From Bdellovibrionales bacterium Ga0074139 (GTDB taxonomy: Bacteria; Bdellovibrionota; Bdellovibrionia; Bdellovibrionales; Bdellovibrionaceae), in NCBI GenBank assembly GCA_001464795.1, contig LNEB01000013.1:62001-126000 (forward strand): a stretch of 64,000 nt of DNA, read 5' to 3'. The notes under the pieces were generated by a model, which saw nothing but the letters and a program-made list of their open reading frames with translations, was not told the DNA's origin and searched no databases. This document shows positions 8,718-31,873 of the stretch, one piece after another; within the stretch, counting starts at the first letter, position 1, and the number at the start of each line of letters is the position of its first letter. The translations under genes and the position numbers were made by a program.

Positions 8718-8750
8718 CTCACAACACCTTTCGAGTGAACTCTTTATTGG

Positions 8751-8823
8751 CAGGGGCGGAGGGATTCGAACCCACGACCTAACGATTTGGAGTCGTTCGC
8801 TCTACCGCTGGAGCTACACCCCT
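8751..8823 (-). tRNA. tRNA-Trp (CCA anticodon)
   Basis: The minus strand folds into a cloverleaf of 73 nt: a seven-pair acceptor stem starting AGGGGTG (with one G-U pair), D arm, anticodon loop CTCCAAA with anticodon CCA, and the T arm with GGTTCGAATCC. The terminal CCA is encoded (8748-8750). It sits between tuf and secE in the same transcription direction and is probably processed from the long operon transcript. Confidence 0.97.
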
Positions 8824-8833
8824 GTAAAGAGTT

Positions 8834-8861
8834 AAGGGGACATCCGCGTAGATGTCCCCTT
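8834..8861 (-). terminator. Hairpin after tuf
   Basis: An 11-bp perfect inverted repeat (8834-8844 with 8851-8861, 6-nt loop) lies about 25 bp after the tuf stop and 11 bp before tRNA-Trp. GC content of the stem is good, but on the minus strand only a short U stretch follows, interrupted by other bases. It may act as a weak terminator or as a boundary or processing hairpin between the tuf message and the tRNA. Confidence 0.6.
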
Positions 8862-8887
8862 TATTAAGCTATTCAGTCTAAAGAAAA

Positions 8888-10081
8888 TTACTCAACGATT
8901 TCAGTAACGACACCCGCACCAACAGTACGGCCACCTTCACGAATTGCGAAGCGTAATTCTTTTTCCATGGCGATAGGAGCGATGAGTTCTACAACCATCT
9001 CTTCTACTTTATCACCAGGCATGATCATTTCAGTTCCGTCTTTCAAAGTTACAACACCCGTTACGTCAGTTGTTCTGAAGTAAAACTGTGGGCGGTAACC
9101 GTTGAAGAATGGAGTATGACGGCCACCCTCTTCTTTTGTGAGGATGTACGCAGAAGCTTTGAATTTCTTGTGAGGCTTAACAGATCCTGCTTTAGCAAGA
9201 ACTTGACCACGCTCGACGTCTTCTTTTTTAGTACCACGTAGTAAACAACCACAGTTGTCACCAGCACGGCCTTCATCAAGAAGCTTACGGAACATTTCGA
9301 TACCCGTTACAGTTGTCTTAACTGTAGGTCGGATTCCCACGATTTCGATCTCTTCGTTCACTTTGATAATTCCGCGCTCGATACGACCAGTTACAACAGT
9401 TCCACGACCAGAGATCGAGAAAACGTCTTCCACAGGCATCAAGAAAGGCTTATCAGTAGCACGAACGGGTTCTGGAATCGCAGCATCACAAGCTTCCATG
9501 AGCTTCATGATTGAAGGACGACCAAGCTCAGAAGTATCACCTTCCAGACCTAGTTTTGCAGAACCTTTTACTATTGGAATTGTATCACCAGGGAAATCGT
9601 ACTTAGAAAGAAGTTCACGAACTTCCATTTCCACTAGCTCGAGAAGATCTTTATCATCAACCATGTCACACTTGTTCATGAACACAACAAGCGCAGGAAC
9701 ACCAACTTGGCGAGCCAAAAGGATGTGCTCACGAGTTTGTGGCATAGGTCCGTCAGCAGCAGAAACCACGAGAATAGCGCCGTCCATTTGCGCAGCACCT
9801 GTGATCATGTTTTTTACGTAGTCCGCGTGTCCTGGGCAATCCACGTGTGCGTAGTGACGCTTGTCAGTTTCGTACTCAACGTGAGTAGTAGAAATCGTGA
9901 TACCACGCTCTTTTTCCTCAGGAGACTTATCGATTTGATCGTAAGACATCGCTTGAGCTTTACCAATAGTTGCTAATGTAGTTGTAATAGCAGCTGTTAA
10001 AGTCGTTTTACCATGATCGACGTGACCGATTGTACCGATATTCACGTGCGGTTTGGTACGGTTGAATTTTTCTTTAGACAT
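8888..10081 (-). CDS. tuf: Elongation factor Tu
   Basis: GTPase that brings aminoacyl-tRNA to the ribosome. It is 397 residues with all G motifs: GHVDHGKTT (P loop), RGITI (switch I), DCPGHADY (G3), NKCD (G4) and GSAKLGLEG for G5, then the two beta-barrel domains. An AGGAGG site lies ahead of the ATG. The gene sits between four upstream tRNA genes and tRNA-Trp, as tufB does in enterobacteria. The 135-bp gap before it has a 7-bp inverted repeat (10177-10183 with 10202-10208) but no clear promoter. Confidence 0.99.
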
Positions 10082-10219
10082 TGTTTCCTCCTGAGAGTGT
10101 TTAGTTTTTTAATCTCAATTTAAATCGTACAAATACAAAAAAATCGATCGCTAGTAACAATTCCAAGGAAACAGATAAACTGCAACCTTTTTGAATCACT
10201 GGCAGTTTCATAAAACTGG

Positions 10220-10291
10220 AGCCCGTGATCGGAGCCGAACCGACGACCTCACCCTTACCAAGGGTGCGCTCTACCACTGAGCTACACGGGC
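10220..10291 (-). tRNA. tRNA-Thr (GGT anticodon)
   Basis: A 72-nt cloverleaf on the minus strand with acceptor stem GCCCGTG/CACGGGC, D arm AGCTCAGTGGTAGAGC, anticodon loop TTGGTAA (anticodon GGT, threonine) and T arm GGTTCGGCTCC. The terminal CCA is encoded at 10217-10219. It is the last of four tRNAs preceding tuf. Confidence 0.96.
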
Positions 10292-10304
10292 CATCCTAAT
10301 TTGG

Positions 10305-10378
10305 AGCGGGAGACGGGTCTCGAACCCGCAACCCTCTGCTTGGAAGGCAGATACTCTAGCCAATTGAGCTACTCCCGC
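10305..10378 (-). tRNA. tRNA-Gly (TCC anticodon)
   Basis: A 74-nt cloverleaf on the minus strand with acceptor stem GCGGGAG/CTCCCGC, anticodon loop CTTCCAA (anticodon TCC, glycine) and T arm GGTTCGAGACC; CCA is encoded at 10302-10304. It lies 13 bp from the neighbouring tRNA-Thr, so the two are processed from one precursor. Confidence 0.96.
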
Positions 10379-10424
10379 TCTATGATAACAACACTAAGGC
10401 CCACTTTTTTCTTGGAAGAAATGG

Positions 10425-10507
10425 TGGACAGGGAAGGATTCGAACCTTCGTAGACATAAGCCAGCAGATTTACAGTCTGCCCCCTTTAGCCACTCGGGCA
10501 CCTGTCC
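10425..10507 (-). tRNA. tRNA-Tyr (GTA anticodon)
   Basis: An 83-nt cloverleaf on the minus strand with the long variable arm of a class II tRNA. Acceptor stem GGACAGG/CCTGTCC, anticodon loop CTGTAAA (anticodon GTA, tyrosine), T arm GGTTCGAATCC, and encoded CCA at 10422-10424. Confidence 0.97.
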
Positions 10508-10530
10508 CCAAAAAACCAAAAAAGAAATGG

Positions 10531-10603
10531 AGCTGGTTATGGGACTCGAACCCGCAACCTGCTGATTACAAATCAGCTGCTCTACCAATTGAGCTAAACC
10601 AGC
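10531..10603 (-). tRNA. tRNA-Thr (TGT anticodon)
   Basis: A 73-nt cloverleaf on the minus strand with acceptor stem GCTGGTT/AACCAGC, anticodon loop TTTGTAA (anticodon TGT, threonine), T arm GGTTCGAGTCC and encoded CCA at 10528-10530. It is the first gene of the run, about 13 nt downstream of the predicted transcription start. Confidence 0.96.
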
Positions 10604-10622
10604 CTTACAAACGGACCCAAAA

Positions 10623-10651
10623 ATTATTTTTGAAATGATTTTTAGAGACAA
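10623..10651 (-). promoter_or_regulatory. Sigma-70 promoter of the tRNA-tuf operon
   Basis: On the minus strand TTGTCT (10646-10651) and AATAAT (10623-10628) are separated by exactly 17 bp, about 20 bp upstream of the first tRNA. The upstream stretch to 10720 is rich in A and T runs and could serve as an UP element. I see no other good promoter before the tRNA cluster, which supports its use as the main start of the operon. Confidence 0.7.
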
Positions 10652-12199: not shown

Positions 12200-12766
12200 A
12201 TGAAACTGATCACAACTCTAGCCTTTCTTTTTTGGAGTTCATTATCTATGGCTGTACAAACTGTTCCTCAACTTGATCTGAATCGATACTTAGGCAAATG
12301 GTACGAAGTTTCCAGCATCCCTGCTTTTTTTCAAAAAAAATGTGTGAAAGATACGACAGCTGAATACAAACTTCTTGAGACTGGAAAAATCGATGTGATC
12401 AATTCCTGCCGTCAAGCCAATGGAAAAATTCAAGTGGCCAATGGTTTAGCCGTTGTTAAAAATAAGCAAACCAATGCAGAACTCGGAGTTTCCTTTGTTC
12501 CATTACTCAATCACTTTGGTTTTTTTCAAGGTCAGTACAAAGTTTTAGCCCTTGGAGAAAACTACGAATATTCTTTAGTCGGAACCGATGATTTAAAATT
12601 TGGATGGATTTTATCTCGTACGCCAGGCCTTTCAATTGATACCTTAGCTGTGATAGAAAAAGAAATTCGCAGACAAGGTTATGATTCTTGTCAATTTTTA
12701 ATGAGTTTACAAACAGATGGAACTTACGTGGAACGTGTTCCACTTTGTGAAGCTGTTAAGCACTGA
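12200..12766 (+). CDS. Secreted lipocalin (Blc-like)
   Basis: A 188-residue protein with a cleavable signal peptide (about 18 residues, ending SMA) and no lipobox, unlike E. coli Blc, which is lipid-anchored. The lipocalin signature is clear: LNRYLGKWYEVSSIP near the start, NSCRQANGK in the middle, YEYSLVGTDDLKFGWILSR near the end. Four cysteines could form two disulfides in the periplasm. Blc-type lipocalins bind fatty acids or lysophospholipids. A GGAGG site precedes the ATG. Its 3' end overlaps that of pyrF by 11 bp on the other strand. Confidence 0.88.
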   Translation: MKLITTLAFLFWSSLSMAVQTVPQLDLNRYLGKWYEVSSIPAFFQKKCVKDTTAEYKLLETGKIDVINSCRQANGKIQVANGLAVVKNKQTNAELGVSFVPLLNHFGFFQGQYKVLALGENYEYSLVGTDDLKFGWILSRTPGLSIDTLAVIEKEIRRQGYDSCQFLMSLQTDGTYVERVPLCEAVKH

Positions 12767-13442
12767 AAGAGACAAAAGCTTTAGCTGCTTTTTTCATATC
12801 TTGAGCGTCGATAATGGGCCGGCCTACAACAAGAGCGCTGGCCCCTTTTTGAATCGCTTCACCAGGTGTCATCACTCTTTTTTGATCCTGAGCTAAATCC
12901 TGAGCCCCTCTGATACCTGGCACAACTTTAAACAGTTTTTTATTTATTAATAAATCAAGCTCATGGCCTGAACAAACAAGTCCATCCAGACCCGATTGCA
13001 AAACGAGATCCGAAAGTTGATCCACATGGTGGGTGGGTGTTTGTGATTTAAAATTAGATGGAAAACTGGACTGATCCCAACTTGTTAAAATACTGACACA
13101 TAAAATTTTAAAAGGGCGAATTTCATTGAGTTCTTTTTCTAATATTGCACACTGTGTGAGAGCCTCGAAACCTGCAAGAGCATGAACTGTAACAAAAGTT
13201 GCACCAGAATCAAAACTGGTTCTTATTGCCGAAATCATTGTGCTGGGAATATCAAAGTGTTTCATATCAACAAAAACTGGCAATAGCTGACTAAGCTTAT
13301 CAATCAATCTTGAGCCCTCTTTCATCACAAGCCTAGGGCCAAGTTTAAATCCGCCTACGATATCTTGAAGCTCAAAAGCGATTTCAAGTGCTTTTTCTGG
13401 TTGATCCACATCAAGTGCGACAAGAATCGGATTCTTAAGCAC
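12756..13442 (-). CDS. pyrF: Orotidine 5'-phosphate decarboxylase
   Basis: Last step of UMP synthesis. The 228-residue length is typical of the short bacterial form. The catalytic tetrad is present as LVALDVD at the N-terminus and VDMKHFDIPST, giving the D-x-K-x2-D motif at D59, K61 and D64; the phosphate-binding loops appear as VTVHA and VPGIRG, ending with VVGRPI. Its start overlaps the 3' end of proS by 8 bp, so it is the last gene of a long run from ribE. Confidence 0.95.
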   Translation of the reverse strand: MLKNPILVALDVDQPEKALEIAFELQDIVGGFKLGPRLVMKEGSRLIDKLSQLLPVFVDMKHFDIPSTMISAIRTSFDSGATFVTVHALAGFEALTQCAILEKELNEIRPFKILCVSILTSWDQSSFPSNFKSQTPTHHVDQLSDLVLQSGLDGLVCSGHELDLLINKKLFKVVPGIRGAQDLAQDQKRVMTPGEAIQKGASALVVGRPIIDAQDMKKAAKAFVSFSA

Positions 13443-15159
13443 GCTTCACCAAAGATGAAACGACATCAGGTGAAACTTTTGAAACTTCTTTTGTTCTACG
13501 AATCACAAGTTCCACTTCGTTTTGCTCGAGGCCTTTTTTTCCAATCACAATTCGGTATGGCATTCCTAAAAGGTCAGCATCTTTGAATTTAAACCCTGGT
13601 CGCTCGTCACGGTCATCAATGAGAACATCAAGGCCTTTTGCAACCAACTCTTTTTCAATTTTGAGACAAACTTCCACAGCATTTGGATCTTTTGTATCAA
13701 GCAGGCAAATATGCACGTCGAAAGGGGCAATGGCTTGCGGCCAGACAATGCCATCCTGATCATGATTTTGTTCGATGCAAGCTTGTACTGTTCTAGAAAC
13801 ACCAATTCCATAGCAACCCATTTCAAAAGCCTGTGCTTTTCCTTGAGAATCTAAGAATGTGGCTTTCATTTTTTCGGAGTACTTCTTACCTAAATAAAAA
13901 ACATGGCCCACTTCTATACCTCGAAAGGCTTGCAGCTTTCCGTTGGATTCAGGACATTTATCACCAGCCTTGGCCATTCTGATGTCAACAATTTGAGTGG
14001 CTTGAAAATCTTTGGGGAAGTTTACATTTTTTAAATGGAAACCATCTTCGTTGGCCCCCACAATGACATTTTTAAGGCCTTGAACACCCGTGTCCATATA
14101 AATGGGAATTTTCAAACCCACAGGGCCGCAGGAACCAGGATGAGCACCAGAAACTTCTCGAACCTCTGCATCTGTTAACATCAAAGGTGCATTCGTTAAT
14201 TTTAAAACATTCTTTAATTTGATCGGATTGAGCTCGTCTGATCCTCTAAGTAAAACACATATTGGTTTAAGTGATGTGTCTTTAGGATTGGTGCGATCAT
14301 TGCTACTGAAAAATAAAGTTTTAACTAAATCTTTTTCTTGTACACCTGTACTTTTCGAAAGATCAGCGATGGTTTTTAATCCAGGTGTAGCAAATTTTTC
14401 TATTTCCTTAGGCGCCTCATGGGACACATGAGCAATGGAATCAATGGCCGGGCAAACTTCAATATTAGCTGCAAAATCTGTGGTGTCACTAACAAGAAGA
14501 GAGTCTTCACCCGCGTCAGCAAGAAGCTGAAACTCGTGAGTCTGGCTGCCTCCGATATTGCCAGCATCCGCTTGCACGATTCGGTATTTTACACCTAATC
14601 GATCAAAAATGGCTTTGTAGGCATTGTACATTACATCATAGGATTTGAGTGCTGAGGCCTGATCCGCATCAAAAGTATAGGCGTCTTTCATGATGAATTC
14701 ACGACCTCGCATCAGACCAAAGCGGGGTCTGATTTCATCTCTGTACTTGGTTTGCACTTGATAAATATTTTTAGGTAAATCTTTATAGGACTTCACATCA
14801 TTACGAACGAAATCGACAACGGCTTCTTCGTGAGTGGCACCTAGACAAAACCAATGTTCATTACGATTTTTAAATTTTAAAAGCCCCGCACCCATTTCTT
14901 CCCAACGGTTGGTCTCTTCCCATAATTCTCGGGGGTGAACAATCGGCATGAGAATTTCGGTTCCACCACGGGAATCCAATTCCTGGCGAATGATATTTTC
15001 AAACTTACGTATAGCCCTAAGAGCAAGAGGACCATAAGTATACAGACCTGGCGCTAACTTTTTTATAAGTCCTGCCCTGATCATCAGTTTGTGGCTTGGG
15101 ATCTCAGCATCACTGGGAGCTTCTTTAAGAGTGTAAATATGACTTTGTGACCAACGCAT
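13435..15159 (-). CDS. proS: Prolyl-tRNA synthetase, bacterial type with editing domain
   Basis: Class II aminoacyl-tRNA synthetase; 574 residues, matching the bacterial form with an inserted YbaK-like editing domain between motifs 2 and 3 (about residues 225-385, with KTLFF and SGAHPGSCGPVG). Motif 1 lies near GLYTYGPLALRAIRKFENII, motif 2 at YRDEIRPRFGLMRGREF, motif 3 at FEMGCYGIGVSR, and the anticodon-binding domain is at the end with DDRDERPGFKFKDADLLG. It lies 12 bp after ntrX. Confidence 0.97.
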   Translation of the reverse strand: MRWSQSHIYTLKEAPSDAEIPSHKLMIRAGLIKKLAPGLYTYGPLALRAIRKFENIIRQELDSRGGTEILMPIVHPRELWEETNRWEEMGAGLLKFKNRNEHWFCLGATHEEAVVDFVRNDVKSYKDLPKNIYQVQTKYRDEIRPRFGLMRGREFIMKDAYTFDADQASALKSYDVMYNAYKAIFDRLGVKYRIVQADAGNIGGSQTHEFQLLADAGEDSLLVSDTTDFAANIEVCPAIDSIAHVSHEAPKEIEKFATPGLKTIADLSKSTGVQEKDLVKTLFFSSNDRTNPKDTSLKPICVLLRGSDELNPIKLKNVLKLTNAPLMLTDAEVREVSGAHPGSCGPVGLKIPIYMDTGVQGLKNVIVGANEDGFHLKNVNFPKDFQATQIVDIRMAKAGDKCPESNGKLQAFRGIEVGHVFYLGKKYSEKMKATFLDSQGKAQAFEMGCYGIGVSRTVQACIEQNHDQDGIVWPQAIAPFDVHICLLDTKDPNAVEVCLKIEKELVAKGLDVLIDDRDERPGFKFKDADLLGMPYRIVIGKKGLEQNEVELVIRRTKEVSKVSPDVVSSLVKRA

Positions 15160-15171
15160 ACGACTTCCTAT

Positions 15172-16533
15172 CTATCCATTTGTTTCGATGCCGTAAGCTT
15201 TAATCTTACGGTGTAAATAACTTCTCTCAAGGCCAATGGCTTCAGCTGTTTTGGAAATATTGCCGCCGTTTTCTTGAATTTTCATCTCTAAATATTCTTT
15301 TTCAAAACCAGCTCGGGCTTCGCGAAATGTTTGCATTTCACTATTTTTATTTTCACCTGCTAAACCCGTGTCCACAAGTCCAGCGAACCTGAGGTCATGA
15401 ATATCCACAAAGTCACCAGGAGTTAAAATATAAACTCTTTCGATGAAATTTTTAAGTTCTCGGATATTTCCAGGCCATCCGTAGGAAATCATCAAAGCCA
15501 CTGCCCCATCTGAAAATAATTTTTTATTTTCACCGGTGTCACGGGAAATCATATCTGCAAAATGAGTGATTAAACTTGTGAGATCTTCTTTTCGGTTGCG
15601 CAAAGGCTCTAGATGTAAACGAAAGGTGCTTAAACGATCATAAAAATCCTGGCGTAAAGTTCCTGCTTGAATGGATTTTTCTGGCGCCTCTGAAGTGGAG
15701 ATGATGACCCGAGCTTCAGATTTCACAAGCTCTTGCCCCATGTACCGAGTGAATTGCCGCTCTTGCATGAATCTGAGTAGTTTGTTCTGAAGATGGGCAG
15801 GCATGGAGGTGATTTCTTCAATGTAAAGAGTGCCATTTTCAACGAGTTCTAACTTTCCTTTTCGAGATCTATCGACCCCGGGCATGGCCCCTTTTTCAAT
15901 TCCAAAAATTTCCCCTTCGAGAAGGTCTTCAGGAATAATTTCACAGTTGATTTCTGCAAATGCCTTACTTGCACGCGGGCTCATGTAATGAATATTTTGC
16001 GCTGCAAGCTGTTTACCTGTTCCTGCCTCACCGGTCACAAGAACCCAAGCTTGAGTGGGTGCGAGCTTTGCAATGAGCTGTTTGGTTTGCATAATTTTTT
16101 GTGAGTCACCACGAATGGCAATGTTACTTCTTAGTTTGCTTAACAATGCCGACTTTTCAGCTTGGGCTTGACGGTAATTAATCGCATTTACAATGGTGAT
16201 AGAGATTTTCTCGATGGACAATGGTTTTTCAATAAAATCATAGGCACCCAGTTTAGTGGCTTTAACAGCCGTTTCAATAGTTCCGTGCCCTGAAATCATC
16301 ACAAATTCTACTTCTGGATATATTTGCCGGGCTTCTTTCAATATTTCCAGACCATCCCTATGACCTGGCATCCAAATATCTAAAAACACCACATCTGGTT
16401 CAATGGATTTTAATAACTTTAAGCCTTCATCACCATTAGCAGCAGTGGCCACTTCATAGCCTTCATCTTTTAAACTGGCCGATAAAATGTCACGAATAGA
16501 AGCTTCATCATCGATAATTAAAATTTTACTCAT
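15172..16533 (-). CDS. ntrX: NtrX-like response regulator with altered AAA+ motifs
   Basis: Response regulator partnered with the adjacent NtrY kinase. Domains: receiver (residues 1-120, phospho-acceptor D52), AAA+ domain (about 140-375) and a Fis-type helix-turn-helix at the C-terminus (NISKTAEAIGLERSYLHRKI). The Walker A is GEAGTGKQ (168-175). The loop that contacts sigma-54, normally GAFTGA, reads GAMPGV (215-220), and Walker B ends EE (239-240) instead of DE. A classical sigma-54 activator is therefore doubtful; it may regulate sigma-70 promoters or act by DNA binding only. Its start overlaps the ntrY stop by 4 bp. Family assignment is firm, the name ntrX less so. Confidence 0.85.
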   Translation of the reverse strand: MSKILIIDDEASIRDILSASLKDEGYEVATAANGDEGLKLLKSIEPDVVFLDIWMPGHRDGLEILKEARQIYPEVEFVMISGHGTIETAVKATKLGAYDFIEKPLSIEKISITIVNAINYRQAQAEKSALLSKLRSNIAIRGDSQKIMQTKQLIAKLAPTQAWVLVTGEAGTGKQLAAQNIHYMSPRASKAFAEINCEIIPEDLLEGEIFGIEKGAMPGVDRSRKGKLELVENGTLYIEEITSMPAHLQNKLLRFMQERQFTRYMGQELVKSEARVIISTSEAPEKSIQAGTLRQDFYDRLSTFRLHLEPLRNRKEDLTSLITHFADMISRDTGENKKLFSDGAVALMISYGWPGNIRELKNFIERVYILTPGDFVDIHDLRFAGLVDTGLAGENKNSEMQTFREARAGFEKEYLEMKIQENGGNISKTAEAIGLERSYLHRKIKAYGIETNG

Positions 16534-18719
16534 TCTTTAGGTCTCCAACCTTCTACTGTGAGCACTGGCATTTCGATCACCATTTTAGAGCCCTGGGGTT
16601 CATTTGGCAAAGCGCGAATGTATCCCCCATGGTCCTCAATGACTCGCTTAACAATCGAGAGTCCAAGGCCAGTTCCACTTTCTTTAGTACTAAAATACGG
16701 TTCAAAAATTTGTTGCCGATTCTGCGCTGGAATTCCCACTCCATTATCGGTCACAGAAATTCGTACAGTTTTTAGCTGATGATCATACTGAGTCATCACC
16801 TGAACAACAGGTGATTGGACTTTTGCACAAGCAGCTACGGCATTATCAATTAGATTGGTAAGGACTCGCTTGATTTGATCCACATCAAATTTAAAAATGG
16901 GAACCGTTTCATCCAATTGTACATCGAATTGAATATCACTGTGAGCATTTGAAAATAGACTGACAGTCTGTTGTGTCACTTCATTGAGCATTCCAGGAAT
17001 GGGCCTGGATTGGGGAAGCCTTGCGAATTGACTGAATTCGTTCACCAAATTTTTCATATCATCCACTTGATGAACAATAACTTGAATGCAATCACGAAAA
17101 GCAGGGTCTTGAATTTGATCAGAAAATTTGCGGTGCAAACGCTCGGCCGCAAGCTTGATAGGAGTTAATGGATTCTTGATTTCATGGGCAATACGTCTTG
17201 CCACTTCTGTCCAAGCAGCAGCTCTTTGTGCAGATACGATGGGGCTTAAATCATCAAACACTAAAACTTTTCCAATTTCATGGCCTTCAGAATCTTTTAA
17301 AATTGATAAATTGAGAGACAAGGGCAGAGACTCACCTTCCACATTCACTGTCATATCACGACGAATGGTTTCAAGTTTATACTCTTGCATATTCTTTAAA
17401 AGCTCAGCAAAAACTCGAAAATAGTCAGACCTGAGTAATTCACGGACAGGACGACCGATATAAGCTTCAGGTTGAATTTTTAAAAGATCAGCTGCGTGTC
17501 GGTTCACTGTTGAAATAATACCTTTTTTATCAACTGAAATAACTCCTGTTGATATGTGACCAAGAACCACTTCCACATATTTAATGGTTTCATGAAGCTG
17601 GGTGGTGGTTTGATCGAGGTTTTCTGTCATGAGATTAAAATTATCCATCAGATAAGTGATCTCTTCGCTGCCTGAAGAGAGTTGCACCGGAGAGTAATCT
17701 CCGCTGGCCACTTTTCGAACGGCTCGTCCCAGCTGCACCAGTGGTGTTGAAATTTGTTTAGCCAGATAAAAACCAAACCAGACGGCAGCAAACAGAATGA
17801 CCAGAGTCATCATTAACAGCACGATGATGTAAATGGATTTCAATGGGGACTCCAAAGGATTCACATCACGAAATTCTTCATAGGCGGAAGACACGTCGGT
17901 CATTTGCGAGGTCAATGATAAGGGCACAAAGCTAGAAACCACCAAAGCTTTTTGAGGCTTTGAATTTTTAATTGGCAAAATCACGCGGACTAGATTTCCA
18001 TCACCAAACTGTTGGATAGTTGAAGACTCTACTTTTTTAACAAGGCCTTTTTGTAAAAAATCAGTATCCGCGAGTGGAAGATGGTAAAGGCTTTCATCCG
18101 TTGTCATCGAATAAATTCGGTCCCCGTCGATGGACGAATAAATTTCAATGGCATCCAGGGCGTAGCGTTTTCGTAAAGATTCAAGGTTTTGTGTTAATAA
18201 TTTTTCGTTGGTGAAATTTCGAATTTCCCTTTGGGCCTCATAGGCGAAATGATAATTTCTTTTTTTAGCGTTGAAATAATAAGAATTTTGAATCTCTAAA
18301 GAGCTTTTTAGAACTCCCACCATTTTAAGGGAAAACCATTTATCAAAACTGGTGTTAATATAAAAAACGGAAATCACAAGAAGTAACAAAGTGGGAATCG
18401 TACTAAAAGCAACAAAGGCTGCTATCAATTTTGATTTCAGTGAACTGCCGAAGATTTTGTTTTTTCTTTCAACAAAGACCTTCACGACGTTTCTGAAAAT
18501 CAAAAACAACAAAAGTAAAAGCAAAATAATATTGAGATTAACCAGACCAAAGAAAAAGATACTATGAACAAATGGAAGCTGTTGGCTGATTGAAAATAGT
18601 CTAATTTCAAACCAAGTTAAAAAAACGACTAAAAAGGAAAGCAGAAAAATAAATACGATTTCTCGTTTTCTTTTTCGCTCTTCTTTGGGTTTGTCGACTT
18701 CTTCAACGGGCTCAATCAT
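16530..18719 (-). CDS. ntrY: NtrY-like membrane sensor histidine kinase
   Basis: A 729-residue kinase with three hydrophobic helices in the first 120 residues, a periplasmic sensor region (about 120-290), a fourth helix (about 295-318), HAMP, a PAS domain with VSVDKKGIISTVNRHAADLL, then HisKA with the phospho-accepting H512 in RRIAHEIKNPLTPIK, and an ATPase domain with N box NLIDNAVAAC, G1 DNGVGIP and G2 GTGLGLSIVK. This order is that of NtrY. It starts 3 bp after ribH and overlaps ntrX by 4 bp. The input signal cannot be read from the sequence. Confidence 0.88.
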   Translation of the reverse strand: MIEPVEEVDKPKEERKRKREIVFIFLLSFLVVFLTWFEIRLFSISQQLPFVHSIFFFGLVNLNIILLLLLLFLIFRNVVKVFVERKNKIFGSSLKSKLIAAFVAFSTIPTLLLLVISVFYINTSFDKWFSLKMVGVLKSSLEIQNSYYFNAKKRNYHFAYEAQREIRNFTNEKLLTQNLESLRKRYALDAIEIYSSIDGDRIYSMTTDESLYHLPLADTDFLQKGLVKKVESSTIQQFGDGNLVRVILPIKNSKPQKALVVSSFVPLSLTSQMTDVSSAYEEFRDVNPLESPLKSIYIIVLLMMTLVILFAAVWFGFYLAKQISTPLVQLGRAVRKVASGDYSPVQLSSGSEEITYLMDNFNLMTENLDQTTTQLHETIKYVEVVLGHISTGVISVDKKGIISTVNRHAADLLKIQPEAYIGRPVRELLRSDYFRVFAELLKNMQEYKLETIRRDMTVNVEGESLPLSLNLSILKDSEGHEIGKVLVFDDLSPIVSAQRAAAWTEVARRIAHEIKNPLTPIKLAAERLHRKFSDQIQDPAFRDCIQVIVHQVDDMKNLVNEFSQFARLPQSRPIPGMLNEVTQQTVSLFSNAHSDIQFDVQLDETVPIFKFDVDQIKRVLTNLIDNAVAACAKVQSPVVQVMTQYDHQLKTVRISVTDNGVGIPAQNRQQIFEPYFSTKESGTGLGLSIVKRVIEDHGGYIRALPNEPQGSKMVIEMPVLTVEGWRPKE

Positions 18720-18722
18720 GAT

Positions 18723-19208
18723 TTATTTTTTTCGATTCATTTTTTTGAGGCTGTTAATAAGCCCTACCATTTCAAGTGCTACGAGTGCTGCTTCTTCGCC
18801 TTTGTGCCCGTGTTTGCCACCAACGCGTTCAAGGGCTTGTTCTTCATCTTCCGTGGTGATCACTCCGAAGCCAATGGACTTACCAGTTTCTAGCATCACT
18901 TGAGTCACTCCACGCTCGACACTGTTACAAACCAAGTCATAGTGGGAGGTTTCGCCGCGAATGACAGCGCCCAACGCTACAGCTGCATCACAACCTTGTT
19001 CGAACATCACTTTTATCGTCAAAGGAATTTCCACGGCTCCTGGAACTTTGACCGAGAAGATTTCAACTTCAGCGGTTTCCAGCACGTTCAACGCACCTTC
19101 CAGAAGTCTTTCTGTTATGTCTTCGTTAAATCGACTGGTGACGACTGCAATTTTCAATCGTGGAGGAATGGCTTTCGAGGGTTTCTTTTTTGCTAACTTC
19201 TTTTTCAC
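18723..19208 (-). CDS. ribH: 6,7-dimethyl-8-ribityllumazine synthase
   Basis: Penultimate step of riboflavin synthesis, condensing the pyrimidine product with 3,4-dihydroxy-2-butanone 4-phosphate. Signatures: LKIAVVTSRFNEDITERLLEG near the start, VPGAVEIPL, ALGAVIRGETSHYD (the substrate loop) and GVITTEDEEQALERVGGKHG. I place the start at GTG (19206-19208), which has an AAGGA site; a TTG 60 bp further upstream has none. Even so, the gene overlaps the 3' end of ribB by 83 bp and carries a basic N-terminal extension (KKKLAKKKPSK) before the conserved core. Confidence 0.93.
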   Translation of the reverse strand: MKKKLAKKKPSKAIPPRLKIAVVTSRFNEDITERLLEGALNVLETAEVEIFSVKVPGAVEIPLTIKVMFEQGCDAAVALGAVIRGETSHYDLVCNSVERGVTQVMLETGKSIGFGVITTEDEEQALERVGGKHGHKGEEAALVALEMVGLINSLKKMNRKK

Positions 19209-19839
19209 TTTGGAATTCCTTCTTTGCTTGGGACTTGAGATGATTAATAAGATCTCGTATTTGTCCAATTTTCAACTTGTGCTGCTCGGCAAAGATTTCT
19301 AAATCGGGAAGTCTGGCCATAGTACCATCTGAATTCATGACCTCACAAATCACAGCTGCGGGTTGAAGCCCTGCCAGCTTCATGAGATCCACACTGGCTT
19401 CCGTGTGCCCAGCCCTTTCTTGCACTCCACCCAAACGAGCTCTGAGAGGAAAAATATGTCCAGGTGAGCGAATATCTTCTGGTTTCGAATTTTTATGACT
19501 GGCCACCTGGATGGTCCGAGCTCGGTCAGCGGCTGATATTCCTGTGGATATTCCTGTGGAAGCTTCGATACTGACAGTGAATGCCGTTTTGTTAGGTGAG
19601 CCATTTTTTGACTCAGGCACCATCAAAGGTAATTCTAAGCGCTCGATGACCTCAGGAGCCAAAGCAAGACAGATAAGACCCCTGGCTTCTTTAGCCAAAA
19701 AATTAATTTTTTCAGCGCTGACATGTTCAGCAGAAAAAATAAGATCGCCTTCGTTTTCACGGTCCTCGTCGTCGACGACAATAATCATATTTCCAGAGGT
19801 GAGTTCCAATAGAAGTTCATCAACCGAACTGAATTTCAT
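19126..19839 (-). CDS. ribB: 3,4-dihydroxy-2-butanone 4-phosphate synthase
   Basis: Converts ribulose 5-phosphate to the four-carbon unit of riboflavin. The 237-residue protein has the catalytic start VVDDEDRENEGDLIF, then TGISAADRART and SPGHIFPLRARLGG with the key residues, and the final RAGHTEASVDLMKLAGL. It is the single-domain form, not fused to GTP cyclohydrolase II; ribA and ribD are not in the window. About 27 C-terminal residues lie in the overlap with ribH and are not part of the conserved core. Confidence 0.95.
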   Translation of the reverse strand: MKFSSVDELLLELTSGNMIIVVDDEDRENEGDLIFSAEHVSAEKINFLAKEARGLICLALAPEVIERLELPLMVPESKNGSPNKTAFTVSIEASTGISTGISAADRARTIQVASHKNSKPEDIRSPGHIFPLRARLGGVQERAGHTEASVDLMKLAGLQPAAVICEVMNSDGTMARLPDLEIFAEQHKLKIGQIRDLINHLKSQAKKEFQSEKEVSKKETLESHSSTIENCSRHQSI

Positions 19840-20438
19840 GTTGAGGTCTCGAATTCTTTTTTATGTAAGTAAAGTTTAGCAAGGTAGTCGGTCTCAAGAT
19901 TGATCAGCCCATTCAATGGAATTTGTGACAGATTCGTTCGCGAAACAGTTTCAGGAATTAAACAAAACTCTACCACACCATCACGAATTTCATTGATCGT
20001 TAGACTAACCCCGTGAATGGCAAGGCTGCCTTTTTTCCAAATTAACGGGAGTAAGTTTTTTGGACATTCCACGTTCAGAAACCAGGAGTCACCGTAGGCT
20101 TCATTGCGAACCACTTTTCCTAGGGCTTCCACATGGCCAGTCACAAGATGACCGTGCACACGATCACCAAATCTAAGCGAACGCTCGAGATTCCAAACCT
20201 GTCCTGTCAAAGAATCCATGTGAATGTTGAGAGTTTTTAAAGTTTCAAATCCTAGAATAAAGTGGATGGAGTGGTCGTTAAACAAATGAACCGTTAAGCA
20301 AACTCCATTACAAGCAATACTGTCGCCAATTTTAATATCATCAAAGTTTTTGGGTCGGATTAAAACAACCTCGACGGCCTGCTTGTGGGGGATCACTTTT
20401 AGAATTTGAGATGTGGTCTCGATGATTCCTGAAAACAT
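19836..20438 (-). CDS. ribE: Riboflavin synthase, alpha chain
   Basis: Dismutates two lumazines to riboflavin. The 200-residue protein has the two lumazine-binding repeats typical of the family: MFSGIIET with GDSIACNGVCLTV in the first, and GHLVTGHVEALG with HGVSLTIN in the second. Its stop overlaps the ribB start by 4 bp. It is the first gene of the ribE-ribB-ribH-ntrY-ntrX-proS-pyrF run. The 61-bp gap upstream is too short for an FMN riboswitch and shows none. Confidence 0.96.
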   Translation of the reverse strand: MFSGIIETTSQILKVIPHKQAVEVVLIRPKNFDDIKIGDSIACNGVCLTVHLFNDHSIHFILGFETLKTLNIHMDSLTGQVWNLERSLRFGDRVHGHLVTGHVEALGKVVRNEAYGDSWFLNVECPKNLLPLIWKKGSLAIHGVSLTINEIRDGVVEFCLIPETVSRTNLSQIPLNGLINLETDYLAKLYLHKKEFETST

Positions 20439-21977: not shown

Positions 21978-23093
21978 ATGAAGAAGCGCTATCTTTCTGA
22001 GCAGATTCTAAAAGACTTGAAAAATAAGATGGTCTTTTTAGGGGGCCCTCGCCAAGTGGGCAAAACGACTTTGTCTTTAGACTTATTCTCTGAGAAATTC
22101 TATCTCAACTGGGATTCTTCAGAAGATCGTGAAAAAATCCTAAAATTTGAATTACCAGCAGAAAAAACATGGGTATTTGATGAAATTCACAAATACAAAA
22201 AGTGGCGGAGTTATGTTAAGGGACTTTACGATAAGAATAAAAAGCAGCAAATTGTGGTGACAGGAAGTGCAAGGCTTGATTTCTATCGCTTTGGTGGCGA
22301 CTCCCTACAAGGGCGCTATCACTTTCTAAGACTTCATCCATTTACTATTGATGAATTACAGTCCAATTCTTTCTCGGATTTTAAAACTCTTTTTGAACTT
22401 GGTGGCTTTCCAGAGCCTTTTCTAAAGGGTGATAAAACAGAAGCCACGAGGTGGTCAAAAGAGTACAGATCTCGTATTCTTAGAGATGACATCAGCTCAA
22501 TTGAATCTATTCACGATTTAGGGTCTGCCGAATTGGTTCTTATGCGTTTACCAGAATTAGTCGGTAGTCCACTATCAATCAATGGCATCAGCGAAGATAT
22601 TCAGATTAGTTTTAAAACCATAAAAAAATGGCTTGATATCTTTGAGCGCTTTTATGCCATCTACAGACTTTCACCCTTCGGCTCGACGAAAATAAAAGCA
22701 TTAAAAAAAGACCAAAAGCATTACCACTATGACTGGACACTTGTAAAAGATTTGGGATGCCGATTTGAAAATATGATCGGCAATCACTTGCTAAAACGAA
22801 TTCACTATTTAGAAGACACCCAAGGACGGGAAATTGAACTTAGATATTTTCGCGATAACGAGCAGCGCGAAGTTGATTTTGTTGTCGTAGAAGATAAAAA
22901 ACCAGTATTGTTTATCGAATGCAAATTGAATGATACAAGCGTGTCACCACACTTAAAATATCTAAAGAAAAAATTCCCTTCGGTAGATTCGTATCAGTTG
23001 ACCTATAACGCAAAAAAAGATTTCGTATCACAAGATGGAATTCGAGTCTGTGATGCTCATAATTTGATGACAGAGATTTTATCTAAAATTTAA
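21978..23093 (+). CDS. AAA+ ATPase with C-terminal DUF4143 / nuclease-like domain
   Basis: A 371-residue protein of the COG1373-like ATPase group. Walker A is GGPRQVGKTT (22-31), Walker B is KTWVFDEIH (about 63-71), and a sensor motif VVTGSARLD follows. The C-terminal half holds LPELVGSPLSINGI, typical of the DUF4143 region, and ends with a PD-(D/E)xK-like pattern (REVDFVVVEDKKPVLFIECK). Such genes are sporadically distributed, often horizontally acquired, and their function is poorly known. It has its own upstream repeat cluster and stands alone. The composition is AT-rich by eye. Confidence 0.8.
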   Translation: MKKRYLSEQILKDLKNKMVFLGGPRQVGKTTLSLDLFSEKFYLNWDSSEDREKILKFELPAEKTWVFDEIHKYKKWRSYVKGLYDKNKKQQIVVTGSARLDFYRFGGDSLQGRYHFLRLHPFTIDELQSNSFSDFKTLFELGGFPEPFLKGDKTEATRWSKEYRSRILRDDISSIESIHDLGSAELVLMRLPELVGSPLSINGISEDIQISFKTIKKWLDIFERFYAIYRLSPFGSTKIKALKKDQKHYHYDWTLVKDLGCRFENMIGNHLLKRIHYLEDTQGREIELRYFRDNEQREVDFVVVEDKKPVLFIECKLNDTSVSPHLKYLKKKFPSVDSYQLTYNAKKDFVSQDGIRVCDAHNLMTEILSKI

Positions 23094-23902: not shown

Positions 23903-24410
23903 ATTATTTGGACTGCTCATAATTGTCGGCGCAGTAGGTTGCCAAACCTACAAAACATTTCACCTTAAATCATTTAAACAATTAAATGCGAGTGATCTAC
24001 ATATCATTCAAGTAAAAGCCTCACTAGTTCAGCAAAAATGTCTTTATTTTAATGCTGAGGCTGATAATAACTGGCGACATCAATATTTCATTTATGTGCG
24101 AAATGATAAAAATGAGTTTTTTGAAATTATGCACCCAACACATCAAGACAAGGAGACATGTGACTTACAAGTTAAGAAAATTGAAAAAATCTTAAAAACA
24201 GGGTCTGAAGTCAGTTTGTGTGCTCGCGGAGAAATAAGGAAAGCCTCAGTCAATCGTGACTACCTTGGAGGCATAATTGACGCGGATTCATCAAATGAAC
24301 CACTCACTGTCTACCAAGCACTCACATTGGACAGTATTTGCTTCTCTAAAAAGTGCTTTAGCAATAATAGTGTCTTTACTACCACATGTCCTGGATTTAC
24401 GAAAAACTAA
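23883..24410 (+). CDS. Lipoprotein coupled to the transglycosylase-like gene
   Basis: A 175-residue lipoprotein: signal peptide LKSKLFGLLIIVGAVGC with the lipid-accepting Cys at residue 20. The mature part has six or more cysteines spread through it, likely forming periplasmic disulfides, and no family that I recognise. The ATG at 23883 lies inside the end of the preceding gene, so translation is coupled and a joint role is likely, for example protecting against or guiding that enzyme. Its end overlaps clpB by 14 bp on the other strand. Confidence 0.65.
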   Translation: MRNLKSKLFGLLIIVGAVGCQTYKTFHLKSFKQLNASDLHIIQVKASLVQQKCLYFNAEADNNWRHQYFIYVRNDKNEFFEIMHPTHQDKETCDLQVKKIEKILKTGSEVSLCARGEIRKASVNRDYLGGIIDADSSNEPLTVYQALTLDSICFSKKCFSNNSVFTTTCPGFTKN

Positions 24411-26982
24411 ACCTGAGCTTCTTCCCATCACTCTCAACTCGCACCTTCGACCCTGGTTTCAAATCCCCCGCAATCATTTGCGTAGCTAATGGATTTAAAA
24501 CATCAGTCTGGATCAATCGCTTCAAAGGGCGTGCTCCGTAGATGGGATCAAAGCCACGCACAGATAAGTAGTCCAAAGCTTCTTGTGCGAATTCAATGGC
24601 AATTTTTTTCTCTTCAAGCCGAGAGATCACGGATTTCAACTGCACCGACACGATATCTCGAAGTTGTTCTTGCCCCAGAGGCTTAAACATAATGATCTCG
24701 TCAATACGGTTCAAAAATTCAGGTCTGAAAGAAGATCTTAAAACTTCCATGACCTTTTTTTCTTTTTCCGTCATCGATAAATCTTTATCGATCAAAAATT
24801 GAGAGCCCATATTAGAAGTCATGATGACCACGGTGTTTTTAAAATCCACCGTTCGACCTTGACCGTCAGTTAGCCTTCCGTCATCTAAAACTTGTAATAA
24901 AATATTAAACACTTCAGGATGAGCTTTTTCCACTTCATCAAGCAGCACAACACTGTAGGGTTTTCGTCTGACAGCTTCTGTAAGCTGCCCGCCTTCTTCG
25001 TAACCCACATATCCCGGAGGGGCTCCCACAAGTCTTGAAACAGTGTGCTTTTCCATGTACTCGCTCATGTCGATACGGATAATAGATTGCTGATCATCAA
25101 ACAAAAATTCAGCCAGCGCTTTGACAGTTTCTGTTTTTCCGACTCCTGTTGGACCTAAAAATAAAAAACTGCCGATGGGTTTATGAGGATCTGAAATTTC
25201 AGCTCTTGATCTTCTGACCGCATCAGCTACCATTTTTAAGGCGTGATCTTGACCGACCACACGGGCTGACATCAGCTTTTCCATCTCAAGTAATTTCTTT
25301 GTTTCACTGCTGAGCATTTTAGAAACAGGAATTCCCGTCCACTTGGCCACGACTTCGGCCACTTCTTCAGGCCCCACTTCTTCTTTTAAAAGTTTGCTGG
25401 GTGATGAAGTTGTTTCTGTTTTGAATTCAAGACTTGCAATTAATTTTTCAGTGTCAGGAATTTTTCCATATTTCAATTCCGCTGCACGTCCCAAATCACC
25501 GGTGCGCTCGGCTTTTTCCATTTCAACTCGGAGTTGATCAAGCTGTGATTTTAAATTTTTACCTTTTTCAAGACCACCTTTTTCAAATTCCCATTGCTCT
25601 CGGAGTTGTTGATTCTGAGCACTGAGTTCTGAAATTTGCTTTTCAAGCTGACCCAATCGGTCCATTGAAGCGGCATCTTTTTCTTTTTTTAAAGATTCTT
25701 TTTCCACCCGAAATTGCATCAGTCTTCTTTCAATTTCATCAATGGCTTCAGGTCTGGATTTTGATTCAATCGACAGCCTTGAAGCCGCTTCGTCAATCAG
25801 GTCGATGGCTTTATCAGGTAAAAATCTTGAAGTGATATAACGATGAGACAGCTTCACAGCTGCTACTAACGCAGAATCCATGATGCGAATCCCGTGATGA
25901 ACTTCGTATTTTTCCTTCAGGCCCCGCAAAATTGTTAAAGCCTCATCAGGACTGGGCTCGTCTACAAGTACTGTTTGAAAACGACGCTCAAGAGCTGCAT
26001 CTTTTTCGATATATTTTTTATATTCATCTAATGTGGTCGCACCGATGCAACGAAGCTCACCTCTTGCAAGGGCTGGTTTTAAAAGTTGACCAGCATCCAT
26101 GGCTCCTTCGCCTTTACCTGCACCCACTAAGGTATGAATCTCATCGATAAATAAAATAATTTGTCCAGCCGCTTGAACCACTTCGTTAATGACAGCTTTT
26201 AGACGCTCTTCAAATTCTCCGCGGTACTTGGCCCCTGCGATTAAAGATCCCATATCTAAAGACATCAGCGTCTTGCCTTGTAAATTTTCAGGCACATCGT
26301 CTTTGACGATTCGAGTGGCCAGTCCTTCAGCAATTGCTGTTTTACCCACACCAGGTTCACCAATCAAAACAGGATTATTTTTAGTGCGTCTTGATAACAC
26401 CTGCATCACACGCCGGATCTCATCATCGCGGCCGACAACTGGGTCAAGTTTACCCTCTTGTGCCAATTGTGTCAGATCACGAGCGTACTTTTTTAGAACT
26501 TCAGTTTTACTTTCAGGATCATCATCGTTCACTTTTTTACCCTGCCGCATGTCTTGAATAGCTTTTTCAACAGCTTGCAGCCCAATCCCATTCTTTTTAA
26601 ACAAATTTTTAAGTTCAGAATCATCTAATTTAAGGGCTGCTACAAAAAAATGTTCTGTAGAAATAAAAGAATCACCAAAAGCTCGCATTTCCACTTCGCT
26701 ACCTTGAAACAACTTTTCCAGCCTCGAGCTAGCTGTAACTTTCGAGGGACCTGAGACTTTTGAAAGTTTATCGAGTCTTTCCTTAATCGACTTGAGAACC
26801 ACCACAGGAGCTTGTCCCAGCTTTTCAATGATACGCGGGACAAGACCTTCTTGCTGCTTGATCAGCTCATAAAGAACGTGCTCAGGCTCGACTTGAGGAT
26901 GCTTTTCAGTTTCAGCCAGTTTTGCTGCATTCTGCATGGCCTCTTGGGATTTTCTTGTCATTTTCTCTATATCGTGGCTCAT
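24397..26982 (-). CDS. clpB: ClpB disaggregase
   Basis: Hsp100 chaperone that rescues aggregated proteins together with DnaK. The 861-residue protein has the N-terminal double-repeat domain, first AAA+ module with [13 protein letters not shown] and [14 protein letters not shown], the coiled-coil middle domain (about 400-530, Glu/Lys-rich), and second AAA+ module with [13 protein letters not shown] and [12 protein letters not shown]. The middle domain and the absence of an IGF loop exclude ClpA. A GAGAGGGA ribosome site precedes the ATG, and a sigma-32-like promoter lies just upstream. Confidence 0.98.
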
Positions 26983-30634: not shown

Positions 30635-31708
30635 TTATTTCATCGGACGAGTATGCACAGCATACTTATCAAATTCACCGTACTCATGAAGCTTGTTGTA
30701 AAGCGTCTTGATTGTGATTCCTAAGTTAGTGGCTGCTTGAGTTTTATTGCCTCCGTAAAAATCCAGAGCTTTTAAAATGTAGCGCTTCTCAAGTTCATAC
30801 AAAGGTAATGAAGGATCATACTCCATTGATTTATCATTTTTTTCAGGAGTACGAATATGATCAGGCAAATCAAGAAGCATAATTTCGTGACCTTCAGAAA
30901 GAATTTGCAATCTTTCACAAACATTTTGAAGCTCTCGAATATTTCCAGGCCATTCGTATTTTAAAATGACTTGTAAGGCTTCATCAGAAATTCTTTTTCC
31001 ACGATTCAAGTAAGAATGCTGAGGCTGATTTAAGAAATGTGTTATCAAACCGGGAATGTCTTCTTTGCGGCGACGTAGAGGTGGAGTCGTCACTACAATT
31101 GTATTGATTCTATAGTAAAGATCTTCACGGAAATTTCCCTTAGAAACTTCTTGCTCAAGATCACGATTAGTTGCAGAAATCAGGCGGATATCCACTTTGA
31201 TAGGATCTTTACCACCTACACGGTAGATCTCACCCTCTTGAACGAATCTTAATAGTTTCGCCTGAATACCTTGAGACAACTCACCGATTTCATCCAAGAA
31301 TAAAGTTCCACCGTTAGCCATTTCAGCTAAACCAGTTTTGCGATTGTAAGCACCAGTGAAAGAACCTTTTTCATGACCAAACAATTCTGATTCCAATAAA
31401 GTTTCACGTAAAGCACCGCAGTTGATGGCCACGAAAGGCTTATTTTTACGGTTCGACTTTTCATGAACGGCACGAGCAATCAGCTCTTTTCCAGTTCCTG
31501 ACTCTCCCATAACGAGAACGTTGGCCTGAGACGGCGCCACACGGTCAATCATCTTCATCAACTGAGTCATCACATCAGATTGATAAATAATTGCACGAGT
31601 GATCTCGGGCTTAGCTACAACCTGCTGGGTAGCTCCCCATTGCAAGGTCTGGCCACTATTTTGAGGAGTGGGTAAAATTGTGGTCGAGGAATTGGAATTG
31701 TCGTTCAT
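30635..31708 (-). CDS. Sigma-54-dependent transcription activator without receiver domain
   Basis: A 357-residue activator starting at ATG 31708, which has a good AGGCGG site (an upstream in-frame TTG has none). It lacks a receiver; a 35-residue tail precedes the AAA+ domain. Motifs are intact: Walker A GESGTGKE (68-75), sigma-54 contact loop GSFTGA (115-120), Walker B TLFLDE (135-140), arginine finger region FREDLYYRINTI. The C-terminal Fis-type helix-turn-helix reads NKTQAATNLGITIKTLYNKL. It could be a flagellar or stress regulator; neighbouring genes give no strong clue, and no sigma-54 promoter is visible nearby. Confidence 0.88.
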   Translation of the reverse strand: MNDNSNSSTTILPTPQNSGQTLQWGATQQVVAKPEITRAIIYQSDVMTQLMKMIDRVAPSQANVLVMGESGTGKELIARAVHEKSNRKNKPFVAINCGALRETLLESELFGHEKGSFTGAYNRKTGLAEMANGGTLFLDEIGELSQGIQAKLLRFVQEGEIYRVGGKDPIKVDIRLISATNRDLEQEVSKGNFREDLYYRINTIVVTTPPLRRRKEDIPGLITHFLNQPQHSYLNRGKRISDEALQVILKYEWPGNIRELQNVCERLQILSEGHEIMLLDLPDHIRTPEKNDKSMEYDPSLPLYELEKRYILKALDFYGGNKTQAATNLGITIKTLYNKLHEYGEFDKYAVHTRPMK

Positions 31709-31873
31709 ACGTACCGCCTTTCGATATAAAATCGAATGAGAATGATGCAATGGATCTAAGTGGGGTGGTTACGTTCTGAAATCCCACTTTGATACACCGC
31801 GTTTACGCATTGCAATATAACTTTGGTACTGAAACTTTTGCAAGTTTATTTTTCATGACCGTGAAAATAGGTA

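Follow-up and report, generated by a model that had tools for sequence, protein, structure and literature searches.

FleQ is an activator that works without the GAFTGA motif. The NtrX of Brucella abortus, whose partner kinase is NtrY, has been reported to bind ATP but not to hydrolyse it, and to act as a repressor at its own promoter. Brucella NtrX (PDB entries 5m7n, 5m7o and 5m7p) shares with the protein described here the order of its receiver (REC), AAA+ and helix-turn-helix (HTH) domains and the absence of GAFTGA. According to the accessible part of PMC10274813, Caulobacter NtrX also lacks GAFTGA, and NtrC of Caulobacter, NtrC of R. capsulatus and a regulator of V. cholerae have been reported at sigma-70 promoters. 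Activators without GAFTGA, including the NtrX of Brucella and Caulobacter, are already known; the Caulobacter and Rhodobacter NtrC, VpsR and FleQ belong to orthologous groups other than NtrX. The NtrX of R. sphaeroides, described in PMC7240162, binds upstream of cell-envelope genes as well as of the operon that encodes it, and it may be an activator and a repressor alike. For the activator PspF, Table 1 of PMC3419264 lists Vmax values (per min) of 39.5 for the wild type, 0.23 for D107A, 0.18 for R162A, 0.17 for R168A and 1.37 for E43A, with K42A not detected; the accessible text describes ATPase activity as abolished, or Vmax as cut more than 100-fold, in D107A, K42A, R162A and R168A. A search for Bdellovibrio together with NtrX, GAFTGA, sigma-54 or NtrC found no prior report of motif loss in titles and abstracts of the open-licence literature, a scope outside which most subscription journals fall.

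The ntrYX locus

In the window, by which we mean the whole 64,000-nucleotide stretch of DNA analysed, an ntrX-like gene lies immediately downstream of its kinase gene ntrY on the minus strand. The initial annotation had placed ntrX at the right coordinates and left the strand unstated. The features of the locus are the following.

12756..13442, minus strand: pyrF, downstream neighbour (named by recognition)
13435..15159, minus strand: proS, downstream neighbour (named by recognition)
15172..16533, minus strand: ntrX-like response regulator, 453 aa, REC-AAA+-Fis HTH
15193..15306, minus strand: Fis-type HTH, residues 410-447; recognition helix common to orthologues with and without the loop threonine
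15634..15654, minus strand: RxDxxxR motif, residues 294-300, kept
15691..15693, minus strand: sensor I position S281, replacing Asn
15814..15819, minus strand: Walker B acidic pair E239-E240, replacing D-E
15874..15891, minus strand: L1 loop GAMPGV, residues 215-220, replacing GAFTGA
16009..16032, minus strand: Walker A GEAGTGKQ, residues 168-175; K174 kept, the next Glu changed to Gln
16201..16524, minus strand: receiver domain, residues 4-111; phosphoacceptor D52 kept
16378..16380, minus strand: codon of phosphoacceptor D52
16530..18719, minus strand: ntrY-like sensor kinase, 729 aa, with NtrY_N, HisKA and HATPase_c; 4-base overlap with ntrX
18723..19268, minus strand: ribH, upstream neighbour (named by product recognition)
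19126..19839, minus strand: ribBA-type gene, same strand as ntrX (named by recognition)
19836..20438, minus strand: ribE-type gene, same strand as ntrX (named by recognition)

The protein is built of receiver, AAA+, lid and Fis-type HTH domains, the AAA+ domain matching PF00158 at 168.9 bits (cut-off 20.2). Its top curated family is NtrX (NF051870, 423 bits, E 1.4e-126, below that family's cut-off of 600 bits), and Brucella NtrX is the closest PDB entry both by sequence (5m7n, E 5.6e-99) and by predicted fold (5m7o, E 1.5e-43). The fold is intact in the AlphaFold2 model (pLDDT 88.5, pTM 0.65). The overlapping kinase gene upstream encodes NtrY_N, PAS, HisKA and HATPase_c domains and is of NtrY type.

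The altered loop and Walker B pair noted in the initial annotation can be read directly in the protein: residues 215-220 are GAMPGV, with F, T and the last A of GAFTGA all changed and the L1 motif consequently absent, and residues 239-240 are EE. Two changes come in addition, sensor-I Asn to S281 and the Glu following the Walker A Lys to Q175. K174, the switch Asn N196, R294, D296 and R300 of the RxDxxxR motif, the sensor-II R358 and D52 are kept, so that five of the seven ATPase residues (K, D, E, N, R, R, R) are in place, D having become E and N having become S. The likeness to Brucella NtrX does not extend to the manner of the loss: in the alignment the Brucella loop is shortened by gaps and its Walker B keeps DE, whereas in the window protein the loop keeps its length and is substituted, and Walker B is altered.

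NtrX orthologues in Bdellovibrionota

Orthologues (n=150) came from searches of 99 relatives, of the class and of the phylum, and were scored at the loop threonine and at seven ATPase positions (the Lys of Walker A, the Asp and Glu of Walker B, the sensor-I Asn, two R-finger arginines and the sensor-II Arg); families and genera are designated by f and g codes. Nine of the 99 relatives (G001, G017, G040, G052, G054, G063, G073, G085 and G097) had no usable full-length orthologue or were omitted, and the survey took in 19 of 22 new class-level orthologues and 41 of the 61 same-phylum genomes with a match.

The loop threonine is intact in 71/150 orthologues, here called keepers, all of which have 7/7 ATPase residues. 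It has been lost in the other 79 (losers), and this alignment, which the initial annotation had proposed as a check, links the two traits closely: 78 of the losers lack at least two ATPase residues (two in 38 cases, three to six in 40), and a single one, L061, still has 7/7. All 58 sampled members of the window's own family, f1, have lost the threonine, which rules out sequencing error or chance, and a congener (G002, 77% identity) carries the identical GAMPGV loop. Threonine losses also occur in f2, f4, f6, f8, f9, f10 and f16, and f4, f6 and f10 contain both keepers and losers. Two distant members of the phylum in f16 (L165 and L166) represent a separate loss of the loop motif, the L1 loop being deleted in one of them.

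Five receiver residues, the phosphoacceptor Asp among them (D8, D9, D52, S81 and K103 in window numbering), are present in 150/150 orthologues. NtrY was found beside NtrX in 147/150 loci, and not found in L056 (3000 nt of upstream DNA available), L087 (136 nt) and L104 (1892 nt). By simple patterns, the kinase H-box is found in 145/147 NtrY proteins and the DxGxG box in 141/147. Because the order ribH-ntrY-ntrX-proS-pyrF recurs in both keeper and loser families of the order, one gene has changed in place, and this synteny rules out replacement by a paralogue. The keeper NtrX proteins of Bdellovibrionota are orthologous to the window protein and within the order share its locus and its recognition helix; unlike it, they combine GAFTGA or GSFTGA with 7/7 ATPase residues, as do the keepers in the phylum of the Nitrospirales genome G262. 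One record titled as a Streptomyces griseus MAG (L195, contig CALQIT020000095.1) looks mislabelled, since its ntrX is identical to that of G021 over 400 residues and a Bdellovibrio-type ntrY lies beside it as well.

NtrX outside Bdellovibrionota

The association of threonine and ATPase residues recurs in other groups. Among the best 30 from the phylum of G262, where 54 of 61 genomes matched, the T is kept in 29 and one has GSFSGA, with 7/7 ATPase residues in 30/30. Gamma-type NtrX, from the class of Thiomicrospira sp. ALE5 (G261), resembles the window protein in being linked to NtrY (29/30 loci) and in keeping the receiver Asp; in the best 30 of 70 genomes matched, a set biased by a query that itself lacks the loop, the loop is lost in 30/30 and at least one ATPase residue in 29/30, L250 having lost the loop and yet kept 7/7. 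The gamma-type loop is deleted, however, while that of the window protein is substituted, and the gene downstream of the gamma-type L205 ntrX looks by recognition like trkA, in the place of proS in the window.

Paralogous activators and sigma-54

As the initial annotation stated, the window contains just one further sigma-54-type activator (30635..31750, minus strand), which has GSFTGA and DE; a weak PF00158 match inside 24397-26982 belongs to a Clp-type ATPase and not to a sigma-54 activator. The genome has 17 PF00158 matches, 14 of them real activators, and the 13 other than NtrX all keep the loop threonine, as GxFTGA or GAYTGA, and Walker B DE. These intact paralogues rule out a genome-wide trait, again in agreement with the initial annotation. 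The same holds for 20 paralogous activators taken from 20 genomes of keepers and losers: every one has the loop threonine and DE in Walker B, and in two of them Ser replaces the second Gly of the loop motif. Loss of sigma-54 from the lineage is also ruled out: losers still carry it, and rpoN is present in 92/99 relatives and in 79/81 genomes of good quality. The lowest-scoring true activator of the genome (L014, G000:C15:1926-2429, outside the window) has GAYTGA and DE, but its sensor I reads Ala-Lys and a Lys occupies the R-finger position.

Graded decay and the number of losses

Family f1 spans a range of states. At the mild end are GAFAGA and GAFPGA loops with milder changes of the ATP site; intermediate members combine GAMPGV with a Walker B pair of A-E, as in most of genus g6 (for example the NtrX of G036), or E-E, as in the window protein; and at the far end, in genus g3, are GTLPGI and relatives with the Walker A Lys changed to Arg and the R-fingers gone. 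That the window protein still activates at sigma-54 promoters, with a tolerated loop variant and a slow ATPase, would agree with its intact predicted fold, with the retention of K174, E240, R294, D296 and R300, and with the largely preserved loop length and GAxPG glycines in f1. We nevertheless consider this very unlikely: F, T and the last A of the motif have all changed, sensor-I Asn is gone, the threonine has been lost family-wide together with the ATPase site (Walker B D-to-A in 19/58 and Walker A K-to-R in 13/58 f1 members), and GAFTGA mutants are in most cases unable to activate (review, accessible part of PMC7175178).

The f1 loop is itself conserved, with Pro218 in 54/58 members (15/19 genera) and Gly219 in 57/58, and the letters at 218 vary in other losers. 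A fixed GAxPG loop could mean that the AAA+ domain now recognises a ligand or partner that it did not have before, such as a second messenger or a different contact on the polymerase, and the non-canonical activators FleQ and VpsR, whose entry titles give c-di-GMP complexes, are among the fold matches. The proline may, however, reflect a founder effect and a structural turn, and we regard such a gain as rather improbable.

The number of separate threonine losses lies between 5 and 12, and is given as a range because both trees carry long-branch warnings. An NtrX tree built without the motif columns gives 5 threonine-state changes, and in it the long, fast-evolving degenerate branches are grouped together across families. 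The NtrY tree (147 rows), in which many forks are weakly supported, splits none of the listed families (21 changes, the minimum) and gives 12 threonine-state changes. Counting losses only returns the same 5 and 12. In a strict test restricted to well-supported branches, five independent pairs were available, a number that gives the sign test low power: ATPase decay accompanied threonine loss in four, went against it in none and did not differ in one (p 0.125). This result is consistent with joint loss of the threonine and the ATPase residues.

Constraint on the protein

In losers the AAA+ domain is under less constraint than in keepers, and the receiver and DNA-binding domains are under more. 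The mean share of the majority residue among same-order keepers (32 rows) is 0.73 in REC, 0.84 in AAA+, 0.70 in the lid and 0.84 in the HTH, against 0.80, 0.67, 0.74 and 0.89 in f1 (58 rows). The recognition helix reads ERSYLHRK in 58/58 f1 members and is nearly invariant elsewhere. With synonymous change near saturation, dN/dS is 0.030 in REC, 0.048 in AAA+, 0.060 in the lid and 0.036 in the HTH for g6 (42 pairs), and 0.133 in AAA+ and 0.015 in the HTH for g3 (4 pairs); few pairs were available outside g6, and three groups had no usable ones. Since the domains are conserved and dN/dS is far below 1 in all of them, the protein is maintained. A gene in decay with little function left would fit the low conservation of the AAA+ core, which ranks last among the four structured domains of f1, and the single stop within the match in each of G060 and G017, the frame of G060 still having 452 residues. 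It is hard to reconcile with a receiver and an HTH better conserved in f1 than in keepers, with the low dN/dS in every domain, AAA+ included, at synonymous sites close to saturation, or with the retained kinase and operon, and we find it scarcely credible. As a separate observation, position 80 of the receiver, adjoining Ser81, holds Ile in 56/58 f1 members and Met in 71/71 keepers and 21/21 other losers (L018-L167).

Discussion

Our comparison suggests that the window NtrX is very probably a phosphorylation-controlled DNA-binding regulator that no longer activates with sigma-54 and that, as with Brucella NtrX, either represses or works at promoters of another kind. The initial annotation had suggested a possible departure of the regulator from sigma-54 control, and every comparative test run supports this at the level of sequence. 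The ancestor of NtrX at this locus would have been an ordinary sigma-54 activator, and its AAA+ motor would since have been retired. The linked kinase NtrY would phosphorylate D52, and the protein would bind DNA through its unchanged Fis-type HTH. Lacking the contact threonine of the L1 loop and having a degenerate ATP site, NtrX would not remodel the sigma-54 RNA polymerase; its targets would most likely be sigma-70-type promoters, or it would repress. The AAA+ domain could then serve as a scaffold for dimerisation or oligomerisation.

By analogy with the published PspF mutants, as given in the accessible part of PMC3419264, we infer that the window protein would have neither ATPase nor sigma-54 activity. 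Many losers are altered at positions tested in PspF, and the D-to-A substitution found in genus g6 is exactly the one tested. Against loss of the motor, the window protein still has the Lys of Walker A, the catalytic Glu, the switch Asn and the two R-finger arginines. It is possible that it binds ATP and hydrolyses it slowly, since its D to E change and the change corresponding to E43 to Q lie outside the PspF mutants in the available portion of that paper.

What appears to be new is the recurrent loss in place in Bdellovibrionota, its tight association with ATPase decay, the graded intermediates and the family-specific GAxPG loop. A bolder proposal, which we put forward as speculative and doubtful, is that across Bdellovibrionota one chromosomal NtrX gene turned again and again, on perhaps a dozen occasions, from an ATP-driven sigma-54 activator to a motorless phospho-switch reading the same DNA sites, the loop having been refashioned to GAxPG with a new contact in the Bdellovibrio family. 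If this were true, the target promoters would have switched sigma factor while the operator stayed fixed. The orthologues grade naturally between intact and largely dismantled forms of a single regulator, while the locus, the kinase and the DNA reader stay the same, and the role of an activator after leaving sigma-54 could therefore be tested by swapping them. The annotation "sigma-54-dependent activator" is likely to be wrong for the f1 gene.

Other features of the window

Near the run of riboflavin and ntrYX genes lies a gene for an AAA_14/DUF4143 ATPase (21978-23093, plus strand). Within 8748-10603, five tRNA genes (Trp, Thr, Gly, Tyr and Thr) flank an EF-Tu-like gene, and an ORF of 85 aa at 10394-10651, which overlaps two of them, is probably spurious.
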